Origin: a virus
Direction: 5' to 3' (one strand)
Virus record (IMG/VR): IMGVR_UViG_3300037042_000847
Span: 1 to 21,915 of that record
Length of the DNA: 21,915 bases
Within the stretch, counting starts at the first letter, position 1. Every line of letters starts with the position of its first letter. The translations under genes were made by a program, and so were the position numbers. Of the stretch, positions 1,904 to 13,623 are shown in pieces. The notes under the pieces were generated by a model. That model did not search any database, was not told the DNA's origin, and saw nothing but the letters and a program-made list of their open reading frames with translations.

Positions 1904-1938
1904 TAAATATATTTTTATTGATGGTGTTTTTACAAAAA
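1904..1938 (-). promoter_or_regulatory. Bacteroidota-type promoter before the holin/chaperone genes
   Basis: On the minus strand TTTTTG (1938-1933) is followed after 21 bases by TATATTTA (1911-1904), close to the Bacteroidota consensus TTTG / TAnnTTTG. It lies partly in the 3' end of the terminase gene. Predicted transcription would begin about 10 bases before the ATG at 1888. Confidence 0.45.
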
Positions 1939-3243
1939 TTTAAATGTCTTTGTTGCCCCCATTTTTATTTCAAAAATCATTCTATATGCCATCGCATCAC
2001 TAAAATCGGGGGAATGTCCTAATACCCTTTTAACCTCCCCCTTACTAATCATAGCAATTTTACCAACCCTTTCACTTGGTTTATATTTTACCTGTTGTAA
2101 TTCATCTATTATGATTGATTGATATTTGGTATTAAGTATCTTTAAACTACCATTATTTATTGCTTCAGCCATTTTGAAATATAATTGTGTTTTTAGATTT
2201 TCATAATTTTCTTCTCTTAATGCCCTTGCATTATTGACGATTGGTTTTGCTGATTTTAAATAGTTCATTAAATATTTACCAACCCCATCACTATCATAAC
2301 TTATATTTTGTGGGGAAACTTTATACTCCTTTGCCTTTTCTTTAATAACCTCTTCTATTTTACCATCAGGATTTACTATAATGTCTATTAAGGTTAAATC
2401 ATCCCACACCATTATTACCGCCTTATCACTTGTAAAGGCAATATCTGCACTGATATATCTTTTACCTTTTTCATCGGGGGTATAATCGTCAATAAAAATA
2501 TTTAATATAGTATCAAAAGTCATTAACGCATCAGGGCTATTTTCATAATCCCAATTACCATTTATCAATCTCTCCCTATCTTGCATAGATAAAGATTTTT
2601 GTAGATTATCCACATATAAAGTATTTATGAATGGGTTGTCTAATACTAACGATTGTATGAACTTTCTATGTGTTGGTAATAGATTATCTTTACTTGGTTG
2701 ATAAAAGTCCCTGTATAAGAAATTCTTTGATGGATTACAAGTCATTAACAATAGGGGTTTAATCCCCAAATCACCATTCATCCATCTACCTAATCTTGAT
2801 TGTAATATTTGTTTTCCCTTCTCATCAACCTCACCTGCCTCATCAATAATGGCAAAAGTCAATAATTGTCCGCCTAACCTCGTATAATTTGGGTCTGAAG
2901 GTAAATACCTTAATTCTAAACAAACTATCTTAGAACCATTCATAAAGGTAATCTCACCCGTTGTGGAGTTATACTTATAGTGTTCGTCTGTTTTTAAATT
3001 CCAATCACTTAACACCTCCATTAAAGATACTATTGTTGTCTTTTTTAAAGTCGTTAATTCATTTCTTGCTAAACCAACTCTAATGTTGGGGTATTGAAGG
3101 CACTTTATTATTGTAAATGCACAAGCTCCATAGGATTTTCCACCAGCTGCAGCCCCTCCGTATAATATTTCTGTTGTTTCTTCATCATCAAAATAATCAA
3201 AGATTAAATCCTGTTTTAATGATGGGGTGAAATTTATCTCCAT
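1930..3243 (-). CDS. terL: Terminase large subunit (ATPase-nuclease), 437 aa
   Basis: This is the DNA-packaging motor, which docks on the portal, pumps DNA into the capsid and cuts concatemers. The ATPase domain has Walker A GGAAAGGKS (residues 29-37), Walker B FAIIDEAG with D134-E135, and a coupling motif LLLMTCNPS near 164-172. The C-terminal RNase H-like nuclease has the expected acidic triad: D267 (ISADIAF), D317/D319 (SYDSDGVG) and D413/D416 (SPDFSDAMAYR). Length is normal for the family. It resembles PBSX/T4-like large terminases found in Bacteroidota phages. Its 5' end overlaps the HExxH protein gene by 47 bases in another frame. The small terminase lies two genes upstream. Confidence 0.95.
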   Translation of the reverse strand: MEINFTPSLKQDLIFDYFDDEETTEILYGGAAAGGKSYGACAFTIIKCLQYPNIRVGLARNELTTLKKTTIVSLMEVLSDWNLKTDEHYKYNSTTGEITFMNGSKIVCLELRYLPSDPNYTRLGGQLLTFAIIDEAGEVDEKGKQILQSRLGRWMNGDLGIKPLLLMTCNPSKNFLYRDFYQPSKDNLLPTHRKFIQSLVLDNPFINTLYVDNLQKSLSMQDRERLINGNWDYENSPDALMTFDTILNIFIDDYTPDEKGKRYISADIAFTSDKAVIMVWDDLTLIDIIVNPDGKIEEVIKEKAKEYKVSPQNISYDSDGVGKYLMNYLKSAKPIVNNARALREENYENLKTQLYFKMAEAINNGSLKILNTKYQSIIIDELQQVKYKPSERVGKIAMISKGEVKRVLGHSPDFSDAMAYRMIFEIKMGATKTFKFL

Positions 3244-3640
3244 AATTTTTATCCTTATATCTTCTTATATTTACTTCTTTAAACACTTCTGGCATAATCT
3301 CATTAGTTAATTCTTCACCCCAAGTTATTATTTCTTCTTCTTTATCAATATTGTAATCATAATATTTAAATCCCCCGTGTGTGCATTCGTGTTGAACTAA
3401 TGTTATATCTCTATACGAACCATCACAAGCAGATAGATTGATGAAAATATAAAATCTACTATAATCGTTGGGGATAAAATTACACATACCATCAAAATAT
3501 GTTCCCCCTTCTTCCATTCGTTTTATACAAGCAGTTCTATTTAATCCGTGTAATTCATCTACACCATAATAATCAAATAACTCAATAGCATCTTCACCTA
3601 TTATAAATTCGTAGTCGTCGTTATTCCGTAGTATAATCAT
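3197..3640 (-). CDS. HExxH zinc-metalloprotease-like protein, 147 aa
   Basis: The protein carries LVQHECTHGGF at residues 81-91, a perfect HExxH motif (H84, E85, H88), followed by acidic residues E101-E103 and E109-E110 (EEEIITWGEELTNEI) that could supply the third, gluzincin-like zinc ligand. The region before it (FIFINLSACDG) looks like the edge strand and the loop leading into the active-site helix of minimal metallopeptidases. No signal peptide or membrane segment is seen. It sits between the two terminase subunits, overlapping the small-subunit gene by 20 bases and the large-subunit gene by 47. I recall similar short HExxH proteins in Bacteroidota phages but know no function. Cleavage of a packaging or virion protein, or of a host regulator, is speculative. 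Confidence 0.7.
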   Translation of the reverse strand: MIILRNNDDYEFIIGEDAIELFDYYGVDELHGLNRTACIKRMEEGGTYFDGMCNFIPNDYSRFYIFINLSACDGSYRDITLVQHECTHGGFKYYDYNIDKEEEIITWGEELTNEIMPEVFKEVNIRRYKDKNYGDKFHPIIKTGFNL

Positions 3641-4037
3641 CTTTATTTGGTTTTAGGTAGTTAATAACTATCCCTTCGTGTTTATGTTCGTGTTTCTCGG
3701 CTGTATAATAACCAAACATTTTATTTAACATATCTAATCCTTTAATAAGGTTTTTTCTGTCTGTTGATGTTTCATTTTTACATTCATCAATTAAGTCAAT
3801 TAAATCTTTTACAACCTTATCCTTATTTACCCCGTATTTTAATTGTAATTCACTTTCTTTAAACTCAATATATTTACTGACCTCTATAGATTGTTTCATT
3901 TTATGGACGCATCTTTTTGCAATATCAGGGTTTTCATGCCCCATTATTTCCATATATGCTCTCGTCCAATTTAATCCATTACTAAATGCGGCATCAACAA
4001 CCGCCTTCTTTTTTTGAAAGTTTGTTTTGTATCCCAT
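3621..4037 (-). CDS. terS: Terminase small subunit, 138 aa
   Basis: Residues 1-50 form a helix-turn-helix-like region (AAFSNGLNWTRAYMEIMGHENPDIAKRCVHKM), as in terminase small subunits that bind the packaging site. This is followed by a helical section (VVKDLIDLIDECKNE...LIKGLDMLNKMFGYY) and a short C-terminal tail (HEHKHEGIVINYLKP) that commonly contacts the large subunit. Length and the LDMLNKMxGYY motif are typical of small terminases in this phage group. It lies directly downstream of the zinc-ribbon gene (3 bases apart) and upstream of the HExxH and large-terminase genes. Its overlap with the HExxH gene suggests coupled translation. Confidence 0.8.
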   Translation of the reverse strand: MGYKTNFQKKKAVVDAAFSNGLNWTRAYMEIMGHENPDIAKRCVHKMKQSIEVSKYIEFKESELQLKYGVNKDKVVKDLIDLIDECKNETSTDRKNLIKGLDMLNKMFGYYTAEKHEHKHEGIVINYLKPNKDDYTTE

Positions 4038-6413: not shown

Positions 6414-6929
6414 TTACAATTGTTTTTTAATTTTTTCTTTTACCTTTTTCACATTATGAAAGACGAGGCAGTGGTCTAACCCATATTCAGCTTCTATTTG
6501 TCTATATGTTTTTCCGTTGATATAATATTCTTCCCACATCTTATCTTCAAACCAGGTTTTACTTGTGTCTTTGTATAATTTATTTATTTTATTTAATTTT
6601 TCTTCAAACTCTATTTTGGTTTCTATATCATCATCATCTATCATATCCATTATTTCCCCAATATAATTATATTGATTTATTCTATTATTTTTATGGAATG
6701 GGGATGTTGAGGAATGGACTTGATTACGAATTGTATTTATAAAATAATATTTAAAATACCCATCACTATAAACTTTTTCTATTTTTTCAGCGTTTTCTAA
6801 ATAAGATATGGCAATTTCACTTATCAATTGTGGTTTTAAATCAACACGGGGGTTTAAAACATTATTCATAATTTCATCAAAAATTGAACCCTTCCTTGTA
6901 ATCTCTACTAATATTTGGTTTATAGTCAT
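6414..6929 (-). CDS. Sigma-70-like protein (degenerate), 171 aa
   Basis: The N-terminal half looks like sigma region 2: an acidic helix (LKPQLISEIAISYLE) and then YFKYYFINTIRNQVHSSTSPF, corresponding to the conserved FxxWLxxIxRN segment that contacts the -10 element and core polymerase. After an acidic linker (DMIDDDDIETKIEFEE), residues about 130-168 (WEEYYINGKTYRQIEAEYG...VFHNVKKVKEKIKK) fit a region 4-type helix-turn-helix. Bacteroidota phages often carry such a protein with an NxxxSSTSPFxKN motif, annotated as a sigma factor (from memory). It probably redirects host RNA polymerase to phage promoters, or acts as a DNA-binding regulator. The ATG overlaps the preceding stop (TAATG), and a strong terminator follows. 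A second sigma-like gene lies rightward at 8536. Confidence 0.65.
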   Translation of the reverse strand: MTINQILVEITRKGSIFDEIMNNVLNPRVDLKPQLISEIAISYLENAEKIEKVYSDGYFKYYFINTIRNQVHSSTSPFHKNNRINQYNYIGEIMDMIDDDDIETKIEFEEKLNKINKLYKDTSKTWFEDKMWEEYYINGKTYRQIEAEYGLDHCLVFHNVKKVKEKIKKQL

Positions 6930-7594: not shown

Positions 7595-8077
7595 CTAATT
7601 AACCCAAATATTTTCATCTTTTTTTATTGTAATGATATTAAACCATTCTTTGAATAAGTTTCTATGAACCAAATATCCCTGAACTCTACCCCCATCTCCT
7701 GATTGTTCTGTTAGTTGTAAATCATTAGTCATCACCAGTAATCTTAATTTACTCATAGGTATAACATAAGCTACTTCTAAATCGGGGAAATAATATACAA
7801 AGTTGTCTGCTTGTGAATTGGATATACCAGATGGCTTACCACTACAAGATATTTCTATAAATAAATTATTGGTGATGTATCCTTTGAAGTGTTCGTATCT
7901 ATCCGTTTTAACCTCAAAAGAGATTGTCTCCCCACTTCTAATCCCTTTAAAGTCGTATCTATAATTGTCGTTGTAGATAATGTCTGTAAGATGATATTTT
8001 GTTGTGAAATGTTCGGCTACTATTCGTTCCCCTTTTTGTCCTTCACTCAAATCCTTTAACCATTTTGTATTTTCCAT
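7595..8077 (-). CDS. PD-(D/E)XK-like nuclease fold protein, 160 aa
   Basis: The order of conserved residues fits the PD-(D/E)XK core: GERIVAEHF with E17, RYDFKG with D42, and SFEVKTDRY with E55-V-K57. These would bind the catalytic metal and the scissile phosphate. Downstream, NLFIEISCSGKPSGISNSQAD resembles phage-encoded members of this fold, where the SGKPSGI loop precedes a helix and the strand FVYYF. Possible roles include DNA resolution, host DNA degradation or recombination; the sequence does not tell which. It is the first gene of the left-reading early-type group and has its own promoter-like box about 15 bases upstream of its ATG. Confidence 0.7.
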   Translation of the reverse strand: MENTKWLKDLSEGQKGERIVAEHFTTKYHLTDIIYNDNYRYDFKGIRSGETISFEVKTDRYEHFKGYITNNLFIEISCSGKPSGISNSQADNFVYYFPDLEVAYVIPMSKLRLLVMTNDLQLTEQSGDGGRVQGYLVHRNLFKEWFNIITIKKDENIWVN

Positions 8078-8147: not shown

Positions 8148-8201
8148 ATGGAGGCATTCTTACTAATCTTTATTGGTGTATTTTTAATAATCTTTATTTA
8201 G
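8148..8201 (+). CDS. 17-aa hydrophobic micro-ORF (very tentative)
   Basis: ATG-GAG-GCA opens an 18-codon frame for MEAFLLIFIGVFLIIFI, a peptide that could span a membrane once. It lies in the divergent intergenic region, and an A+T-only stem-loop overlaps its TAG. The composition could arise by chance in TTT-rich DNA, so the call is weak. Confidence 0.2.
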   Translation: MEAFLLIFIGVFLIIFI

Positions 8202-8216
8202 AATTATTCTAAATAA
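8194..8216. repeat. Perfect 10-bp inverted repeat, 3-base loop
   Basis: TTATTTAGAA and TTCTAAATAA flank TTA. It is all A:T except one G:C pair. A T-rich stretch follows on the plus strand (8221-8245). It could be a weak terminator isolating the sigma promoter, or a binding site for a dimeric regulator between the divergent operons. Confidence 0.5.
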
Positions 8217-8246: not shown

Positions 8247-8276
8247 TTGTCTTTTGATAAAGTATCATATATTTAT
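8247..8276 (+). promoter_or_regulatory. Promoter of the rightward sigma-factor unit
   Basis: TTGTCTTTTG-A-TAAAGT begins at 8247 and ATATTTAT begins at 8269. The same two blocks with exactly the same 22-base spacing recur before the next gene at 9205-9234. The layout fits a Bacteroidota promoter (TTG, about 18 bases, then TATATTTA). The predicted start near 8283 would give a leader of about 250 bases. Confidence 0.65.
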
Positions 8277-8290
8277 ATGATGTAGTCGTT

Positions 8291-8493
8291 AATTATTTAC
8301 TAATACGATGAAGGAATGAAGTGTAATCGTGGCTTGGAACTGATAAAAGGTGTGTTAGTAAATAATATCTTAAATGTAATAGATGGGTCTTCTACAACTT
8401 ATTACCCGATTACAGCCATACGAAATAGTAGGTGATATATAAGTTATACTTTCTTATGGGGGGTAGGGGGGTATAACTTATTTATTATCACCC
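8291..8493 (+). ncRNA. Structured leader/possible ncRNA upstream of sigma factor (possible pseudoknot)
   Basis: Four pairings are visible. Stem A: 8292-8307 with 8351-8366, 16 base pairs including two G:U. Stem B: TGTAATCG 8322-8329 with CGATTACA 8407-8414; its 5' arm lies in the loop of A and its 3' arm outside, which would make a pseudoknot. Stem C: 8376-8381 with 8400-8405. Stem D: 8431-8437 with 8486-8492 and TAAGTTATAC 8440-8449 with 8471-8480, closing a loop with two six-G runs (8458-8463, 8466-8471). Base composition in 8308-8430 is clearly richer in G+C than the AT-rich flanks. It follows a good promoter and ends 43 bases before the sigma start. I recognise no known riboswitch or ribozyme. 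It may control sigma synthesis, or be an independent RNA or a DNA site such as an origin. Confidence 0.5.
8316..8435 (+). CDS. 39-aa ORF inside the structured leader (doubtful)
   Basis: An ATG at 8316 opens 39 codons (begins MKCNRGLELIKGVLV, contains TTYYPITAIRNSR) ending at TGA 8433-8435. The product looks mildly protein-like, and AAGGA directly abuts the ATG. However, it uses codons rare in the neighbouring genes (CTG, CGT, CGA, AGG, CCG, GGC), and its bases also form the stems described for this region. It may be a regulatory leader peptide or a chance frame across a structured RNA. Confidence 0.25.
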   Translation: MKCNRGLELIKGVLVNNILNVIDGSSTTYYPITAIRNSR

Positions 8494-8535
8494 TCAAAAT
8501 AATAATTAAAAAAATAAATGTAAAAAATGATATAA

Positions 8536-9198
8536 ATGGAAATTAAAGAAATAACAAATAATATTAACAATCTTCTAAATAAAGTTAAAGAATGTAGATT
8601 TATTCCCGATGAAGATAAAAAAGATATTTCACAGGATACAATATTAAAATTATTAACAGCTAAAAACTTTGATATAACGAACTCTTTTGAAGAGAATAAA
8701 GGTTATATATTCATAACAACAAGAAACTGCTGCCTTGCCCACCACAAGACAAAAAAGAAAGATTATAATGTGGTTAATGCTGACTGGATATTTGAAACTA
8801 TTTCAAATGAGGGGGATAAATATTATGATAATACAAATGAGTATTATATGAATAAAGTAAATCAAATTTTAGAAACAGATAAAGCCTTCAACGAAACTGA
8901 AAAATTAATATTAAAATTAAGATTGATGGGATTAACTAATATACAAGTATCTAAACAATTGGGTATAAAAGAAACATCACAAATTTATTATAATGCAAGA
9001 ATAAAATTAAAATATAAGTTAAACCCCAAAGTTAGATTTATCGTTAGAGATAAACGACTTAATAAAGATTATGAAATAAAAGAAAGAACTGATGTATTAA
9101 AGTTTTTACCCCATCTTAACGAGAATTATATTAATGTATTTTTAAGAAATGAGTTGGGTATTTTAAACTCACGATATAAAGTTTCAAAAATAATTTAA
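8536..9198 (+). CDS. ECF-like RNA polymerase sigma factor with C-terminal extension, 220 aa
   Basis: Residues about 20-85 match sigma region 2: DEDKKDISQDTILKLL corresponds to the conserved D-xxQDxxLKxL helix, and YIFITTRNCCLAHHKTKKK to the WLxxIARNxxxxxxRKxKR segment. Residues about 117-161 match region 4: FNETEKLILKLRLMGLTNIQVSKQLGIKETSQIYYNARIKLKYKL, a helix-turn-helix for the -35 element. Residues 162-220 are an added domain (KVRFIVRDKRLNKDYEIKERTD...NSRYKVSKII) not seen in minimal ECF factors, which has a NUMOD-like feel. It is the first long gene of the rightward unit, behind a strong promoter and a long structured leader. It probably programs host polymerase for a phage gene class. The sigma call is good; the added domain is unassigned. 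Confidence 0.7.
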   Translation: MEIKEITNNINNLLNKVKECRFIPDEDKKDISQDTILKLLTAKNFDITNSFEENKGYIFITTRNCCLAHHKTKKKDYNVVNADWIFETISNEGDKYYDNTNEYYMNKVNQILETDKAFNETEKLILKLRLMGLTNIQVSKQLGIKETSQIYYNARIKLKYKLNPKVRFIVRDKRLNKDYEIKERTDVLKFLPHLNENYINVFLRNELGILNSRYKVSKII

Positions 9199-11882: not shown

Positions 11883-13247
11883 TTAAAGTATTTGTTGTGT
11901 ATTATCAGGGGTTATTTTTTGTTCGGGTTCTCCTAACATTCGTCTTGCATGTGTGGGGTTTATACCATATATTAATTCTAAAATTGATGCCCCACTATCA
12001 ACGCTTGTAATACCTTGTGATACGGACGATTGTATTGCTAAAATACCCTGAACTCCCGCTGCTGACCCCTTCAATTCTGCCTGTGCTTTTAATTGTATTC
12101 CTAAATCTTCTTCTTTATCCACATTAACCTCATCATATTTTTTTAATCTTATGTCTTCATTAAAACCAATTTTAGATAAAACATAATTAAATTGTGCTTC
12201 CATTTGTTGTTGTCTAATTTCAATATAATATTGTTGAAATTCAACGAGTAATTCTTGTCTTTCTTGTGTTGAACCTAATTTGCCAGGGGTTAGAATAATC
12301 AATTGTGGGGGTATTTCATGCCCCATCACTATATTTTTCTCTACCATATCTTGCAACATAATAAAACGCTCATCACTATCGTTTAAAGTAATGGGTGTTA
12401 TTTCAGGTTTTTCATCTGCTCCGTTTGAATAGGTGATTATTACCTTACCACTATTTCCCGACCCTTGATAATTTCGTCTAAAATCTCTATAATATTCGTC
12501 CATTTCTTCAATACCAGGTATGCCAGTAGCAAAGTTAATTAGAAACGACGGGGCGAACCCAAGTTTTACTTGATTAAGATGGAACCTACTTATTTCGTAA
12601 TCTAACTCAATCCAATTTATACTTGTAGAATATCCTGGTATGCTATAAACCTCATCTTGTTGTGGGTTAGGTTCAATATAATAATATAGTTGTTTCCCCG
12701 TTCTTTCTAATGGGTTAAACTTTTTAATAAATCTTGGTTGATATTCGTCTTTTTTAAATTCCCTCCAATTTTTAGAATACCAATAATGCGGATAATCTAT
12801 TTCTTTTGTTTCAATACCCTTTCTTATTTTAGCAAATGGCATGTAATGTATTGAAAATGAGCTACCATCCATATTCCATATTACCTCAAAACAAAAACCA
12901 TTAAAAACTTCAAAATCAACATTACATCTTTGTAATACCTCATCTAAATTATTATCCTCTACATATTGTCTTAATTCAGGAGTTATTATATCTGCCAATC
13001 CAAACCCTGTAGTTAAACGGGTTTTTTTGTTAATGATAGATTTATGGGCGGTTGAACCATAATGGTTATACAAGTTTAATAAATAGTGGGGGTATAGATT
13101 ATCATTTCCCCACTGAATGAACCCGTGTGCTTCATTATATTTATATTCGGGAGCTACATACTCTTCACCAAAATTAAAGACCTTAAAAGCCCCCTTTAAT
13201 GATTTTACTTCTTCGTTCAATATTATTTCTTCGTTTTTATTTTTCAT
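11883..13247 (-). CDS. Phage portal protein, 454 aa
   Basis: This is the ring at the capsid vertex through which DNA passes; it binds terminase and connector. It is recognised from the N-terminal arm (FIQWGNDNLYPHYLLNLYNHYGSTAHKSIINKKTRLTTG), the wing region, and the stem-like segment IIFAxG-type GNSGKVIITYSNGADEKPEITP, followed by a long helix (QERQELLVEFQQYYIEIRQQQMEAQFNYVL) and a C-terminal crown (SSVSQGITSVDSGASILELIYGINPTHARRMLG). The length is usual for HK97-like portals. I prefer the ATG at 13247 to the TTG twelve bases earlier because the previous gene's TAA ends one base before this ATG. The connector candidate follows. Confidence 0.85.
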   Translation of the reverse strand: MKNKNEEIILNEEVKSLKGAFKVFNFGEEYVAPEYKYNEAHGFIQWGNDNLYPHYLLNLYNHYGSTAHKSIINKKTRLTTGFGLADIITPELRQYVEDNNLDEVLQRCNVDFEVFNGFCFEVIWNMDGSSFSIHYMPFAKIRKGIETKEIDYPHYWYSKNWREFKKDEYQPRFIKKFNPLERTGKQLYYYIEPNPQQDEVYSIPGYSTSINWIELDYEISRFHLNQVKLGFAPSFLINFATGIPGIEEMDEYYRDFRRNYQGSGNSGKVIITYSNGADEKPEITPITLNDSDERFIMLQDMVEKNIVMGHEIPPQLIILTPGKLGSTQERQELLVEFQQYYIEIRQQQMEAQFNYVLSKIGFNEDIRLKKYDEVNVDKEEDLGIQLKAQAELKGSAAGVQGILAIQSSVSQGITSVDSGASILELIYGINPTHARRMLGEPEQKITPDNTQQIL

Positions 13248-13248
13248 A

Positions 13249-13623
13249 TTAATTTTCAAATGTATATTCTGTTTTAGGGCTATTAAATGTGGTTCCTGAT
13301 GTTGAACCTGATGTTATTATATTACATAAACCACTTTCAACAACATCGTTGATAGTTAATCCTGTCGTTGATAAAGTATTACCTGTTGTTTGCCATACAA
13401 AGTAATCATAAGTTCCCCCGATTAAATTTAAATAACCTATATTAACGGGGAAATAGTTATATCTTGCATTATTATTTGTCGTATCACCTGTTAAAAAAAA
13501 ATAATTATGGTCGTGGTTTTGATTACTAAATAAATCCATAATATAAGTAGCACCCGACAAGGTGGTTTTTTCAAATAATGTTAAAGGAACTAATGTTTGT
13601 GTGTTAGCCGATATTGTAATCAT
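13249..13623 (-). CDS. Small beta-rich protein of unknown function, 124 aa
   Basis: The sequence is rich in Thr, Asn, Tyr and aromatic residues (TLVPLTLFEKTTLSGATYIMDLF...YFVWQTTGNTL...VESGLCNIITSG), which suggests a beta-sandwich. I recall similar LTLxEKTTLSxxxYxxxF proteins in Bacteroidota phages, without known function. It begins a new transcription segment: a terminator lies upstream and a CATATTTATAA box precedes the ATG by about 12 bases. Its stop codon is one base from the portal start, so the two are coupled. A capsid decoration or portal-associated role is inferred. Confidence 0.6.
   Translation of the reverse strand: MITISANTQTLVPLTLFEKTTLSGATYIMDLFSNQNHDHNYFFLTGDTTNNNARYNYFPVNIGYLNLIGGTYDYFVWQTTGNTLSTTGLTINDVVESGLCNIITSGSTSGTTFNSPKTEYTFEN

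Follow-up and report, generated by a model that had tools for sequence, protein, structure and literature searches.

In the plasmid ColE1, a G-rich loop of the transcript RNA II pairs at a C-rich stretch of the template downstream. ColE1 does without an initiator, its origin being opened and primed by RNA II (PMC5043065); at oriF and oriG of phage T4, a promoter is followed by an A+T-rich unwinding element and an R-loop serves as primer (PMC3016281); and at mitochondrial CSB 2, a hybrid G-quadruplex has been proposed to end transcription and to stabilise an R-loop linked to priming (PMC5027508). The element that we describe here lies in a tailed phage and is, on balance, likely to be an origin transcript standing in for a protein initiator, that is, an RNA-based, initiator-less origin. 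Like RNA II, it would give a structured transcript, has its own promoter (predicted here) and occurs with no recognised encoded initiator, whereas the persistent RNA-DNA hybrid from which RNA II primes with host enzymes (PMC5043065) has a counterpart only in the model that we propose below. In contrast to RNA II, which measures 550 nt, the element measures 110-225 nt, is found in phages and combines twin G-tracts with two repeat pairs that change in concert; nothing like the antisense RNA I was seen, and no sequence or structure relation to RNA II was found, plasmid matches being no better than chance and Rfam matches absent.

Similarly, the element has the promoter and the A+T-rich stretch of oriF and oriG, but T4 R-loops are independent of specific sequences, and the T4 replisome is encoded by the phage itself, whereas the core of the element is a conserved folded RNA and no replication protein is recognised in its small carriers. 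With CSB 2 it shares two adjacent G-tracts, with the G in the RNA; however, no covarying hairpins or repeats are described at CSB 2, the polymerase is unrelated and two members of the element family lack G-tracts. GOLLD and ROOL, both in Rfam, are likewise structured noncoding RNAs of phages, but the element is far smaller, has another structure and has no Rfam match. Finally, DUF6291 and HTH_36 (O-like, DnaD-like) proteins occupy the same slot and, by inference, may have the same role, although they are protein and not RNA, and DUF6291 is uncharacterised.

The window, by which we mean the whole 21.9 kb stretch analysed, is a tailed-phage fragment from IMG/VR with genes for terminase (1930-3243) and portal (11883-13259), in which GC skew tracks the coding strand. 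Among isolates, the phages nearest by terminase are those of Flavobacterium, Cellulophaga, Bacteroides and Polaribacter (34-39% identity), and since these are Bacteroidota phages the host is probably a member of the Bacteroidota. A second ECF-like sigma protein, encoded at 6414-6929 (-), matches NCBIfam sigma70-ECF at 2.8e-7, under the cut-off; it is kept across the phage group, and its family served to retrieve relatives. The nuclease-like protein at 7595-8077 (-) (phrog_13596) has homologues in unrelated carriers of 64 kb (L006) and 52 kb (L024). A tiny hydrophobic ORF at 8149-8202 (+) (MEAFLLIFIGVFLIIFI), possibly encoding a small membrane peptide, recurs almost unchanged in L001 and L002, within a block that is ~91% identical at the DNA level.

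The element spans window positions 8280-8504 and is present, at one copy per record, in about 28 contigs of IMG/VR that belong to several phage groups; the carriers are partly related to each other and many of the contigs are incomplete. Further copies were retrieved via the sigma gene's relatives, via DNA patterns (mid hairpin, G-hairpin) and via searches with neighbouring proteins; pattern matches in L004, L005, L010-L013, L015, L017-L023 and L027 were judged to be due to chance and were discarded. A covariance-model search of homologues, as the initial annotation had advised, was run with a model built from six copies, the window left out; it recovered the window at 109.5 bits (E ~2e-17) as well as four other held-out copies. 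In Rfam 15 no family reached the gathering cut-off, permissive searches giving one chance match only; BLAST searches with several types of element gave chance-level matches only, both among isolate phages and among plasmids, the window element matched nothing in plasmids above chance, and the sole match in one scan of genome contigs was archaeal and due to chance. The element is structured, absent from Rfam and undescribed, in agreement with the earlier view that it resembles no known riboswitch or ribozyme.

Members of the family vary in form. The element of a 69-kb contig (L148, 4408-4566) has three G-tracts as well as an AAGCAAA repeat and sits in a phage of higher G+C (~45% at the locus), which shows that the family is not confined to A+T-rich phages. 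Minimal elements in L114 (4572-4681) and L132 (3283-3393) lack both the 5' domain and the G-tracts, and their L/L' repeat is an identical 13-14 nt. The contig of L026 (G010, 34 kb) is possibly a chimeric assembly, as two of its loci (L046, L050) are terminase-like and belong to one family.

The + strand of 8288-8500 folds at -52.3 kcal/mol (z = -2.45; 3/200 shuffles were equally good), and the helices of the element are conserved and covary. In a structure-blind MAFFT alignment, 98% of cells pair and nine pairs have changed on both sides, against 3.6 in shuffles and at most two with the partner slid. Double-change cells number 53 against 13 in shuffles for 12 sequences, and 118, matched by no shuffle, against 33 for 25 sequences, in alignments that were fitted to the structure and are therefore biased towards it. 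The conserved core consists of the mid hairpin M and the final hairpin F, the 5' domain being optional (Table 1); in L114 and L132 the promoter lies directly 5' of hairpin M, and so the core alone appears to be enough. The best-supported helix, the outer mid stem TGTAAT/ATTACA, was overlooked in the initial annotation, but two features reported there, an inner stem (GGGT/ACCC) and the GGGGGGTAGGGGGG-bearing final hairpin, are present and conserved. The 16-bp stem reported alongside them also exists, as stem A of 15-16 bp, and both of its arms have changed in L025, L026, L045 and G013; its counterparts (TTTACTAA/TTAGTAAA, TTTACC/GGTAAA, ATTTACC/GGTAAAT and GATATAATC/GATTATATT) are shorter, and any one shorter relative by itself is near chance.

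A predicted pseudoknot of stem A with hairpin P1, whose loop supplies one arm of stem A and whose outer pair is G-C, A-U or G-U among relatives, is supported. The pseudoknot originally suggested was a different one, formed through a helix B (GTAATCG 8323-8329 / CGATTAC 8407-8413) that is complementary in the window but unconserved, and which competes with the TGTAAT/ATTACA stem; of the compensating changes to be sought in stems A, B and D, those in A were found, and helix B was rejected as unconserved. The stem of P3 varies among relatives yet remains paired (GUAC/GUAC, GCAU/AUGC, GUAU/AUAC). Helix cells contain 37 G.T against 12 A.C, which points to the + strand as the folded strand, an excess that cannot tell RNA from single-stranded DNA.

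Table 1. Features of the element and its flanks, in window coordinates
Feature	Position	Strand	Details
Bacteroidetes-type promoter, TTG-N18-TATATTTATA	8247-8277	+	Predicted; similar motif 5' of the element in most group-1 relatives
Hairpin P1	8285-8309	+	GUCGU 8285-8289 / ACGAU 8305-8309; optional 5' domain
Stem A	8292-8366	+	P1 loop 8292-8306 pairs with 8352-8366; predicted pseudoknot with P1
Hairpin P3	8319-8335	+	AAG/CUU stem; conserved loop UGUAAUCGUGG
Core hairpin M	8375-8414	+	8375-8380/8409-8414 and 8385-8388/8404-8407; covariation
Loop repeat L (AACTTATT)	8396-8403	+	Identical to L'; concerted change
Repeat DR1 (AAATAGTA)	8423-8430	+	After M; concerted with DR2; 7/8 identical in the window
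Core hairpin F	8431-8492	+	8431-8437/8486-8492 and 8439-8449/8471-8481; covariation
Twin G-tracts GGGGGGTAGGGGGG	8458-8471	+	Loop of hairpin F
Repeat L' (AACTTATT)	8475-8482	+	3' arm of hairpin F
Very A+T-rich stretch	8493-8572	+	88% A+T, 99th percentile of the window; candidate unwinding region
Repeat DR2 (AAATAATA)	8497-8504	+	After F; concerted with DR1
ECF-like sigma gene	8536-9198	+	Lies next downstream; not regarded as the target; NCBIfam sigma70-ECF 8.5e-11; PHROG sigma

The good upstream promoter noted in the initial annotation is supported by our comparison, and the transcript would be expected to start near 8280-8285. The element is also richer in G+C than its surroundings, as had been remarked for the window, and this holds for 27/27 elements relative to their contigs; the downstream flank, in turn, is A+T-rich across elements (median 98th percentile). 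Coding conservation of an open frame, which had been named as the finding that would speak against an RNA, was not seen among relatives: open frames differ and indels break them, and we rejected a small protein-coding gene. A promoter-mimic (6S-like) role was dropped, as changes in the loop are not accompanied by changes in the phage promoter motif.

Each G-tract has 4-6 G, and the spacer between them is two bases, mostly NA. Two or more G-tracts lie on the non-template strand and RNA in 22/25 elements and are of equal length in 19 of these 22 (r = 0.85); at least two such tracts are what a CSB 2-like hybrid quadruplex calls for, the quadruplex itself being putative. The mid-loop repeat L (consensus RACUURU) recurs as L', in the variants AACTTAT, GACTTAT, GACTTGT and AACTTGT, with CAGGGACTTATTT in L114 and L132, while DR1 and DR2 occur as AAAATAG, TTGAATAG, AAGCAATATG, AAGTAGTT or AAATAAAG. 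For both pairs, the copies follow one another within a phage although their sequence differs between phages (own-versus-cross permutation 0/20,000 for each, a test that carries a shared-ancestry caveat), L026 being an exception to the concerted change of L and L'. When the reverse complement of L was sought as a trans target in the fetched loci (10-mers), none was found outside the element. Besides the 5' arm of F, which is missing in L114 and L132, the partner shared by both L copies is the template DNA strand, and it is on this common partner that our RNA-DNA hybrid model is based.

The element occupies a replication-initiation locus. Group-1 relatives without it carry a protein gene in the same slot, which is DUF6291 in seven element-negative records and, in G031, an HTH_36 protein (phrog_428 replication initiation, E 5.6e-12), with G015 weakly likewise. 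The HTH_36 protein matches replication initiation, O-like and DnaD-like families, and the long forms of DUF6291 have matches among PHROG primosomal proteins (E as low as 7e-7), from which we infer an initiator or primosomal type of role for DUF6291; its fold prediction is of low confidence (mean pLDDT 48). A DUF6291 or HTH_36 initiator is present in 0/22 carriers and 9/21 non-carriers (Fisher p = 5e-4, an approximate value because the records are related and many are fragments). Indeed, L008 and L133, with 91-94% DNA identity, differ by the exchange of a 229 nt element for 717 nt containing a DUF6291 gene and a 69-aa ORF, and a similar replacement in front of sigma distinguishes L104 (element) from L101 (DUF6291). 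In G013, a near-complete carrier of 28.5 kb with structural, sigma, HNH and methyltransferase-like genes, a PHROG scan recognised no replication gene; together with searches for PF19808 and phrog_428, it revealed no encoded initiator in the carriers, which are incomplete contigs. The larger carriers gave nothing against initiator families except a weak HTH_36 match (15 bits, below the cut-off) adjoining the element in G003. In G003 and G008 the element heads a replication/recombination operon with an Erf-like protein and DnaB, and G006 and G057 likewise encode DnaB-like helicases.

Neither the element nor a recognised initiator is present in the non-carriers L107, L108, L110 and L098. Small or unknown ORFs lie upstream of sigma in the first three and may be further replacements; one of them, a 330-aa protein in L110, has no structural relative by sequence. 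A separate leader motif, absent from the window, is found in L001 (3793-3890), L102 and L104 (~3640-3760), and also in L133. It consists of two interleaved stems (pseudoknot-like) and a T-tract terminator, lies 5' of the RNA element or DUF6291, and has the look of an attenuator acting on the replication unit.

Given that the RNA replaces initiator-type proteins, that it sits at replication loci, and that it is accompanied by a promoter, G-tracts and an A+T-rich flank, we lean towards an origin transcript. As relatives without the element carry an initiator-type protein there, the phage probably starts replication with RNA instead, which is in line with two of the options originally listed, a separate RNA and an origin. 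A function in replication, by whatever route, we consider reasonably probable; an R-loop mechanism is a plausible proposal that we hold with less assurance. In this model, host RNA polymerase would transcribe the element. Since L equals L' and DR1 equals DR2, each RNA segment can pair with the template at the second copy, and RNA L and DR1 would pair with the template strand at the downstream L' and DR2. Folding, twin G-tracts and repeats would keep the transcript hybridised to DNA at hairpin F or immediately beyond it. The resulting R-loop would then open the A+T-rich DNA, supplying the 3' end of a primer as well as a displaced strand onto which a helicase could be loaded; this helicase would be the host's in 28-32 kb phages and the phage's own DnaB in larger ones. 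More tentatively still, the element may represent a class of phage RNAs not described before, standing in for protein initiators, in which repeats and G-tracts program a site-specific RNA-DNA hybrid and RNA and protein initiators are alleles of one locus.

An unlikely alternative, although the one that fares best, is a free-standing RNA, for regulation or host takeover, that occupies an exchangeable slot among the early genes and would bind a protein or host RNA via its two RACUURU copies. The exclusion of DUF6291 would then reflect one slot with alternative cargo, and the element's own promoter, varied neighbours, duplicated loop motif and exact cassette exchange all agree with this. However, the alternative cargo is repeatedly of initiator or primosomal type, the element is at replication operons in larger carriers, and the two DR copies remain similar even as they drift freely, which would be needless for a fixed protein site. 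Improbable to a greater degree is an origin acting as DNA, with hairpins in single-stranded or supercoiled DNA that load the host primosome or a nickase (a phiX174-type site) and with transcription secondary. Such an origin would draw on the same replacement evidence, the strong hairpins and the A+T-rich flank, but there is a conserved promoter in front, the pseudoknot stem A suits RNA, and the G.T excess favours a folded + strand, be it RNA or single-stranded DNA.

The initial annotation took the element for a leader before a phage sigma factor that could gate sigma synthesis in cis. The placement holds in group 1 (contigs to ~34 kb), where the element lies mostly upstream of a sigma-like gene, but not elsewhere, where replication operons, HNH or unknown genes follow. 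The sigma genes following the element belong to two unrelated families, element and sigma gene are divergent in L099, an HNH endonuclease gene intervenes in L081 (2802-3191, -; with its own promoter-like sequence), the next gene in L007 is preceded by its own promoter-like sequence, and in 52-69 kb phages, which have no sigma gene there, the element precedes HTH, HNH or unknown genes. A constant same-strand downstream gene, the mark of a sigma cis leader, was not found among the loci compared. Because downstream genes vary and sigma may be divergent, separated or absent, we conclude that the element is not a dedicated sigma leader; the varying downstream genes already largely refute control of sigma synthesis, which is very improbable. 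Least probable of all is mobile DNA or a site of recombination or packaging, DR1/DR2 then being a target-site duplication on either side of hairpin F, since although the repeats flank F and differ between phages and the allelic exchange is clean, both repeats keep a fixed register with two covarying hairpins, each record has one copy and no transposase or integrase is among the PHROG matches of G013.

If the element is indeed an origin transcript, it would account for genome copying in dsDNA phages of ~30 kb that have no recognisable replication genes. Tailed phages without replication proteins of their own would have an RNA-only origin, and RNA and protein initiators would be interchangeable as alleles of one locus. 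What triggers formation of the ColE1 hybrid (PMC5043065) and which rules R-loops follow at T4 origins (PMC3016281) are still listed as open, and the element would offer a small, tractable system for the conversion of a nascent transcript to a primer. Furthermore, as a new RNA family it can serve to mark uncultivated Bacteroidota-type phages.
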